Shown here piece by piece: positions 21,567-23,319 of a stretch of 50,727 bases of DNA; position 1 is the first letter of the stretch; each line of letters opens with the position of its first letter. Made by a program: the position numbers and the translations under genes. A model generated the notes under the pieces. That model worked only from the letters and a program-made list of their open reading frames with translations. It did no database searches and was not told the DNA's origin. Source of the DNA: Desulfobacteraceae bacterium (GTDB taxonomy: Bacteria; Desulfobacterota; Desulfobacteria; Desulfobacterales; SG8-13); assembly GCA_029287875.1 (NCBI GenBank), contig JARFQH010000280.1, positions 1-50,727 of the forward strand, given 5' to 3'.

Positions 21567-21764
21567 TTATCTGTAACTTTTTGTGGGGCTCTCCTTGCTT
21601 CCGTCCAGAGCCCGCCGGAGACGATCGCGCTCGACTTTGGCCTTGCGAAGCTCATCCGTCAGCGCTTCCTGTCTCTCCAGTAGGGCGTCATCGATCTGTT
21701 TTTCAAGTTCTGAAACTTCCCGGATGAGGCGATAGAGGTCTCTTGCAATCAATCGGATCGACAT
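21567..21764 (-). CDS. Small coiled-coil-like hypothetical protein
   Basis: 65 aa MSIRLIARDLYRLIREVSELEKQIDDALLERQEALTDELRKAKVERDRLRRALDGSKESPTKSYR. Confidence 0.55.
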   Translation of the reverse strand: MSIRLIARDLYRLIREVSELEKQIDDALLERQEALTDELRKAKVERDRLRRALDGSKESPTKSYR

Positions 21765-21885
21765 AAGCTTGACTCTCTATAAAAATGTAAAAACAGACGG
21801 CGGACAAGGCGGGCCAACATAACCGTCACGGACGGTTTCCGTCAATTTTTATTTGACATCCCGGGGGTTCTGTGATTATTTAATG

Positions 21886-21919
21886 CAATGTTCAAGGCAG
21901 CGCCGACAATGTTCAAAGG
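21886..21919. promoter_or_regulatory. Direct repeats CAATGTTCAA spaced 21 bp
   Basis: CAATGTTCAAGG at 21886 and CAATGTTCAAAGG at 21907, downstream of a TTGACA box at 21853. Confidence 0.3.
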
Positions 21920-22043
21920 GTTGGGGCTGCCTTTAAATTTCGTGCAATTGAAAACCAGAGCCACTTTCTTTCCAGGTCTACCCTAAGAATATAGCGGGTC
22001 TGCATTAGCGTCAAAACCATTCGCGAACGCCCCATACCCATTC

Positions 22044-22107
22044 AAGCGGTACAAAAACAACCTGGCAGTTTTACAGACAGCGGGCCGGAAAAGGTACCGC
22101 TTTTTTT
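22044..22107 (+). terminator. Terminator/attenuator-like hairpin immediately upstream of the 22119 gene
   Basis: AAGCGGTAC ... GTACCGCTT (perfect 9-bp stem, 41-nt loop), ending in TTTTTTT; the SD GGAGGT starts at the next base. Confidence 0.5.
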
Positions 22108-22118
22108 GGAGGTGAACA

Positions 22119-22379
22119 ATGATGTACTTCGAAGCCATTTTCCAACCGAATAACCTGACCCACTACAATTCCGATGATGTTCAGAAAATCGTTGGAAAAA
22201 AGATTGCCGTTCAGGACGGCTGGATTCTCGAAGAAGGCCCGCACAAAGGCCAACAGGGGTACTATCTACCGAACTCAACTGTCGGTCTGATACCAGCCAG
22301 TGACCTCAAAGAGATCCGAGTCATTCCCTACGCTCAGTGGAAAGACATCTTCAACCGAACCAAGCAGGAATCCGTTTAA
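22119..22379 (+). CDS. Hypothetical protein, 86 aa
   Basis: MMYFEAIFQPNNLTHYNSDDVQKIVGKKIAVQDGWILEEGPHKGQQGYYLPNSTVGLIPASDLKEIRVIPYAQWKDIF; SD GGAGGTG. Confidence 0.75.
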   Translation: MMYFEAIFQPNNLTHYNSDDVQKIVGKKIAVQDGWILEEGPHKGQQGYYLPNSTVGLIPASDLKEIRVIPYAQWKDIFNRTKQESV

Positions 22380-22604: not shown

Positions 22605-22665
22605 GATACGGTATGCCGCTTTTGCCGCCTTTTGAATAATCAATCGATTTTTGTGGAGGAAACGG

Positions 22666-23319
22666 GTGACGCTGTCCTACTTCGATTCCTTTTTAAAACG
22701 TGTTTTCGCGACCACCGGGTTGGAAACTCAAACCGAGTTGGCTTCTGTGCTTCGGATCAACCGCTCGGCCATTACCCAGGCGCGCAAGAAAGATTCGATC
22801 CCGGCCAATTGGGTTCTTCAGCTCTATCGTATTTATGGTTTCAATCCGGACTGGCTCGAGAGAGGCACGGGCGAGACCTTCCTTAAAGCAGACCGAGAAA
22901 AGGAAATAAAGTTTAAACACGTCCCCAAGGTCAAAGCGCGTCTTAGCGCGGGTGGCGGTTCTTTCGAGATTGGCGCTGAAATTCAGGGCTATTACGCCTT
23001 TCAAACCGAGTGGTTGCGAACCAAGGGCAACACGGATCGGATGGTTCTTATGGACATCTTCGGCAACAGCATGGAGCCCGAATTGAAGGACGGCGACAGT
23101 GTCCTCATCGACGAATCACAAAAGGATATCCTGTCCGGGGCCGTTTTTGCCGTGGGTGTCGACGACACCATTTTGGTCAAACGCGTCGAAAAACACCCCA
23201 ACACGCTGGTTCTGCTCAGCGACAACAGGGACTATGCGCCGATTTATCTCAAAGGCAGCGAGTGCGAGAGTGTGCGTGTCATCGGCAAGGTGATCTGGGC
23301 GGCGCGGGAGTTTCGATAG
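22666..23319 (+). CDS. Phage CI-like HTH / S24 (LexA-like) peptidase-domain repressor
   Basis: GTG start after GGAGG; N-terminal CI-type HTH TQTELASVLRINRSAITQARKKDSIPANWVLQLYRIYGFNPDWLERGTG; S24 Ser in GNSMEPELKDGDSVLID and Lys in TILVKRVEK; Ala-Gly in RLSAGGGS. Confidence 0.9.
   Translation: MTLSYFDSFLKRVFATTGLETQTELASVLRINRSAITQARKKDSIPANWVLQLYRIYGFNPDWLERGTGETFLKADREKEIKFKHVPKVKARLSAGGGSFEIGAEIQGYYAFQTEWLRTKGNTDRMVLMDIFGNSMEPELKDGDSVLIDESQKDILSGAVFAVGVDDTILVKRVEKHPNTLVLLSDNRDYAPIYLKGSECESVRVIGKVIWAAREFR

Follow-up and report, generated by a model that had tools for sequence, protein, structure and literature searches.

A candidate leaky terminator in the leader of a small orphan gene of Desulfobacteraceae and its possible link to cold-shock proteins

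How can a gene be expressed when a hairpin resembling a transcription terminator stands immediately before its ribosome-binding site? The question is raised by a gene for an 86-aa protein (22119–22379, plus strand, ATG at 22119) in a stretch of 50,727 nucleotides from a Desulfobacteraceae bacterium, which we call the window. By alignment with relatives, the second ATG, at 22122, may be the actual start. A first-pass annotation had proposed a structured leader, riboswitch or attenuator, in an intergenic region of about 350 nt. The region measures 354 nt (21765–22118) and is divergent, with a 65-aa ORF on the minus strand on one side and the 86-aa gene on the plus strand on the other. The reading that we favour overall, on balance and with real reservations, is a leaky leader terminator: expression of the gene would hinge on read-through, which antitermination by cold-shock (Csp) proteins may increase.

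The surroundings of the leader can be described briefly. The 65-aa ORF (21567–21764, minus strand) is coiled-coil-like, lies between an Fe-ADH gene and the leader, and has sub-threshold Pfam matches only. The downstream neighbour (22651–23319, plus strand) encodes a CI/LexA-like repressor that combines an S24 peptidase domain with a phage CI-type HTH. The 86-aa gene itself appears to stand alone, since no downstream partner is consistent among its loci.

A candidate promoter, assigned by sequence and consensus match, spans 21853–21882 (plus strand). Its −35 box TTGACA (21853–21858) had been pointed out together with a weak −10, and both −10 candidates are indeed weak: GATTAT at 21874–21879 (spacing 15) or TATTTA at 21877–21882 (spacing 18). 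Four homologues (L009, L010, L011 and L020) likewise carry an exact TTGACA upstream. From these boxes, the window leader transcript would start at about 21888. A direct repeat AATGTTCAA (CAATGTTCAA) occurs just past this predicted start, at 21887–21895 and 21908–21916, the copies being 21 bp apart, or two helical turns; it is a possible operator, but a repeat of this kind would not be very surprising by chance.

Both stems reported in the first-pass annotation are present in the leader and beat shuffled sequences. Hairpin 1 (21894–21933, plus strand) consists of an 8-bp closing stem AAGGCAGC/GCTGCCTT (21894–21901/21926–21933) and a 5-bp inner stem, with a folding energy of −24.1 kcal/mol (z −4.9) that none of 200 shuffles equalled. 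No proper T-run follows it, and its core GCAGCGCC/..GCTGC is common to the leader terminators of relatives. Hairpin 2 (22044–22107, plus strand) is formed by the 9-bp stem AAGCGGTAC/GTACCGCTT (22044–22052/22094–22102) with a run of 7 T (22101–22107), and the Shine-Dalgarno sequence GGAGGT (22108–22113, plus strand) lies immediately 3' of that run, as had been stated. Its energy is −20.2 kcal/mol (z −3.5; 1 of 200 shuffles as good) and its pair probabilities are 0.81–0.99. Hairpin 2 shows the anatomy of an intrinsic terminator, a stem-loop containing G+C with a U-run immediately behind it, but has an atypically long loop of 41 nt, because of which a simple terminator scan missed it. We infer from this anatomy that hairpin 2 terminates transcription in vivo.

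Could such a hairpin be there by chance, with no regulatory meaning? Dinucleotide shuffles of the region yield a stem of at least 8 Watson-Crick pairs followed by a T-run in 2.1% of cases, and a bare 9-bp stem in 10%. Because shuffling alone produces stem and T-run in 2%, homologues were needed. Taken alone, hairpin 2 is only moderately unlikely to have arisen by chance; the fact that it recurs in the same place in eight families makes the case convincing and leaves chance with very little probability.

These homologues define a family confined to the order of the window. As the first-pass annotation had noted, the gene is an unknown one, and the 86-aa protein has no match in Pfam, NCBIfam or PDB. 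Homologues are found in 41 of 390 genomes of the order (E ≤ 0.01; a few marginal), and matches in a class-labelled search are restricted to the same order. A sample of the phylum contains no relative besides the window's own genome, and the phage, plasmid and viral collections contain none. The sole match among genome contigs (L002, Thiorhodococcus) was rejected as spurious, being antisense to a [NiFe] hydrogenase gene. An AlphaFold2 model (pLDDT 87.7) presents five strands and a C-terminal helix, a predicted SH3-like barrel, and a fold search with the protein returned only weak matches of SH3/DUF903 type. A KOW/NusG-like reading of its GPxKG motif is unsupported by profile or fold searches.

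We used a single detector (a stem of at least 6 pairs and a T-run, at most 40 nt from the start) on homologues and control genes. A hairpin with a T-run abutting the Shine-Dalgarno sequence is present in the window and 21 other homologues, 22 in all, from eight families and with differing hairpin sequences. At 277 control genes from five genomes the detector produced 6 loose hits, none of them as compact a hairpin, which supports the earlier view of a conditional-expression arrangement. The stem core GC[AG]G..CTGC occurs in 8 of 8 leaders that are not csp-linked, versus 13 of 173 ordinary terminators of these genomes. Compensatory changes among homologous leaders, whose absence would have spoken against the proposal of the first-pass annotation, are found: the fifth pair of the cross-family stem is G-C, G-U, A-U or C-G depending on the family, so that pairing is maintained by two-sided changes.

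The position of the hairpin also bears on what it can do. The upstream neighbour is divergent at the window and at L005, L006, L007, L010 and L025, and since it points away, the hairpin is not the terminator of an upstream gene at those loci. The gap between T-run and Shine-Dalgarno sequence is too small for a promoter; therefore, polymerase must cross the hairpin to reach the gene. On the other hand, the hairpin is missing in 16 of 38 homologues, including all those of family f36 except for the poor match L042, and the gene can thus live without it.

The f36 homologues fit an alternative in which hairpin and U-run act not on termination but on translation or mRNA stability, as a U-rich enhancer of ribosome binding and a protective 5' hairpin. 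Consistent with it, a T-run without hairpin is kept in L004, L033, L034, L039 and L040. Likewise, L014 and L015 (family f56) keep a GCGGCG/CGCCGC hairpin 30–50 nt before the start codon, ahead of the Shine-Dalgarno sequence and without T-run, which is consistent with a function outside termination. However, T-runs alone are common near starts (31 of 217 control genes), and the combination of hairpin and T-run is that of the canonical terminator. We consider this alternative unlikely, although it deserves to be kept in mind.

Is the terminator then controlled by a ligand? A riboswitch of an undescribed class, with hairpin 1 and the middle leader as the aptamer controlling hairpin 2, would suit the long leader (about 220 nt), the stable first hairpin and the terminator abutting the Shine-Dalgarno sequence. 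Against it, the 108 nt between the hairpins (21936–22043, plus strand) show no special structure relative to shuffles (z −0.55), and stepwise folding of the window leader reveals no antiterminator strand competing for AAGCGGTAC. Relatives have only about 15–35 nt from predicted start to terminator, and searching three genomes of the window's own family with the leader DNA gave no match. The first-pass annotation had recognised no known riboswitch class, and in an Rfam scan, likewise, neither the window nor 20 homologous loci reached a gathering score; Rfam 15 at a relaxed threshold gave one chance-level match only. A structured aptamer with a mutually exclusive antiterminator, which defines terminator-type riboswitches, is not found in the window leader. 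A riboswitch is thus quite improbable, and of the original proposal the terminator-type control stands while the ligand riboswitch does not.

The same short leaders of relatives weigh against a leader-peptide attenuator, in which a 32-aa ORF present in the leader (21888–21986) would couple translation to termination. Moreover, this ORF starts at the predicted transcript start with no Shine-Dalgarno sequence and lacks any run of a regulatory codon. About 58 nt separate the end of the ORF from the terminator stem, and the relatives' leaders are too short for any ORF. In our estimate such an attenuator has a very low probability.

Between the promoter and the 3' terminator, a 220-nt transcript with a stable hairpin at its 5' end is also defined; it could be a small RNA that ends at the terminator and is functional in itself, the downstream gene being expressed by occasional read-through. 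In E. coli, 3' ends inside 5' UTRs are reported to be common (PMC7815308), which is compatible with such an RNA. Yet the leader sequence is unconserved among homologues while the position of the terminator relative to the Shine-Dalgarno sequence is conserved, and no Rfam sRNA matches. A functional small RNA therefore has a low probability. For the leaky terminator, our preferred reading, the genomic neighbourhood in relatives suggests how read-through might be set.

At 11 loci, in families f22, f66 and f30, the gene lies about 85 nt past the end of a csp gene, and at L030 and L033 (the latter a second copy in G171) a different csp paralogue lies 149–346 nt upstream. The terminator at the csp-adjacent loci is of the AAGGGCATTCC type, the ordinary csp terminator of the order, which is also present without the gene and also follows csp genes in the window's own genome. 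This argues against the translation or stability alternative for these copies; because the ordinary csp terminator occurs without the gene too, it is no proof of dedicated control there. Covariation among the csp-adjacent terminators alone does not exceed that of shuffles. The window has no csp nearby.

The csp terminators before the gene are predicted to be weaker than ordinary ones. By the scoring formula used here, their median is 0.7, versus 23.75 after other csp genes (Mann-Whitney p = 0.0004, uncorrected for relatedness, with lineages that are not independent). The weaker scores are mostly due to a T-run that, beyond its first two T, is broken up or shifted. In the window, by contrast, the T-run follows the stem at once and the loop is long.

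The csp genes of the order have a leader of their own. Their 5' UTR is a conserved structured RNA of about 123 nt across the order, found at L118:1501-1623 (+), L113:1374-1497 (+), L111:1693-1816 (−), L114:1374-1497 (+) and about 30 further loci. Our covariance models of it, R1 and R2, comprise a 5' hairpin GGCCCGTC/GGCGGGCC followed by GTTTCGTTCTGAAGG. Model R2, built from eight leaders, matches 162 of 194 genomes of the order with 1–7 copies each. A csp gene starts exactly at the end of the RNA in 28 of 30 fetched loci; the two exceptions are L141, a short contig piece with no csp found, and L137, with csp on the other strand. Eight pairs show two-sided changes versus 2.4 expected, a count reached by 0 of 500 shuffles, although fitting the alignment to the structure biases it. 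No match to this RNA was found in Rfam, and we consider it a candidate new class of cold-shock leader RNA.

In genus g96 the csp coding sequence is broken (L013) or deleted (L016 and L024), while the csp promoter, 5' UTR hairpin, terminator, Shine-Dalgarno sequence and gene are retained. The 5' UTRs of these three loci score 63–67 bits with model R1, whose input included the same three leaders. We rejected the identification of hairpin 1 or the window leader with the csp 5' UTR hairpin, as the scores with R1 and R2 are 4.5 and 1.6 bits. Loss of csp as in g96 is a plausible route to the layout of the window, whose own leader has no detectable csp-leader remnant.

Taken as a mechanism, the preferred reading would work as follows. 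Hairpin 2 would be an intrinsic terminator between the gene's own promoter and its Shine-Dalgarno sequence, and only polymerases that read through it would express the 86-aa gene, as in a leaky, attenuator-type leader. Cold-shock-family proteins would melt or prevent terminator hairpins and so increase read-through, and the pre-gene terminators of csp-linked lineages would be weaker than ordinary csp ones as if tuned for it. The Csp proteins are put forward because in several lineages the gene adjoins a csp with its terminator, or the retained promoter and 5' UTR where csp has been deleted. That expression of the gene is limited by the terminator is probable on the leader's sequence; that read-through is under Csp, cold or slow-growth control, which draws on genomic association and analogy, is a tentative suggestion that may well be wrong.

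The analogy comes from E. coli, where CspA, CspC and CspE raise read-through at metY-rpsO, and CspD raises it at the SgrS terminator and upregulates the leader-controlled operons tnaC and thiMD (PMC9765468). These systems share with our locus an intrinsic terminator upstream of a gene, with read-through set by Csp in E. coli (metY-rpsO with CspA/C/E; sRNA, tnaC and thiMD with CspD; PMC9765468). Here the gene is repeatedly csp-linked and a Csp action would be the counterpart; in contrast to E. coli, the terminator abuts the Shine-Dalgarno sequence of one small orphan gene and often lies just behind csp. With transcription attenuators and terminator-type riboswitch leaders, the locus shares the order of promoter, leader, intrinsic terminator, Shine-Dalgarno sequence and gene, but it contains no aptamer and no functional-looking leader peptide. 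As in cspA-type thermosensors, the transcript begins with a csp 5' UTR hairpin in some relatives, whereas the window leader is not recognised by the csp leader models of the order.

A further-reaching version is more speculative still and, in our estimate, rather doubtful: an order-specific module in which Csp lets polymerase past a weak terminator, at first csp's own (autogenous) and later a stand-alone gate, ahead of a small SH3-like protein. The loci with intact, broken and deleted csp form a natural series ahead of the same terminator and gene, which is open to direct reporter testing. If the proposal is true, an ordinary gene-end terminator can turn into a stand-alone expression gate, and this control would offer a starting point for a protein family that so far carries no annotation.
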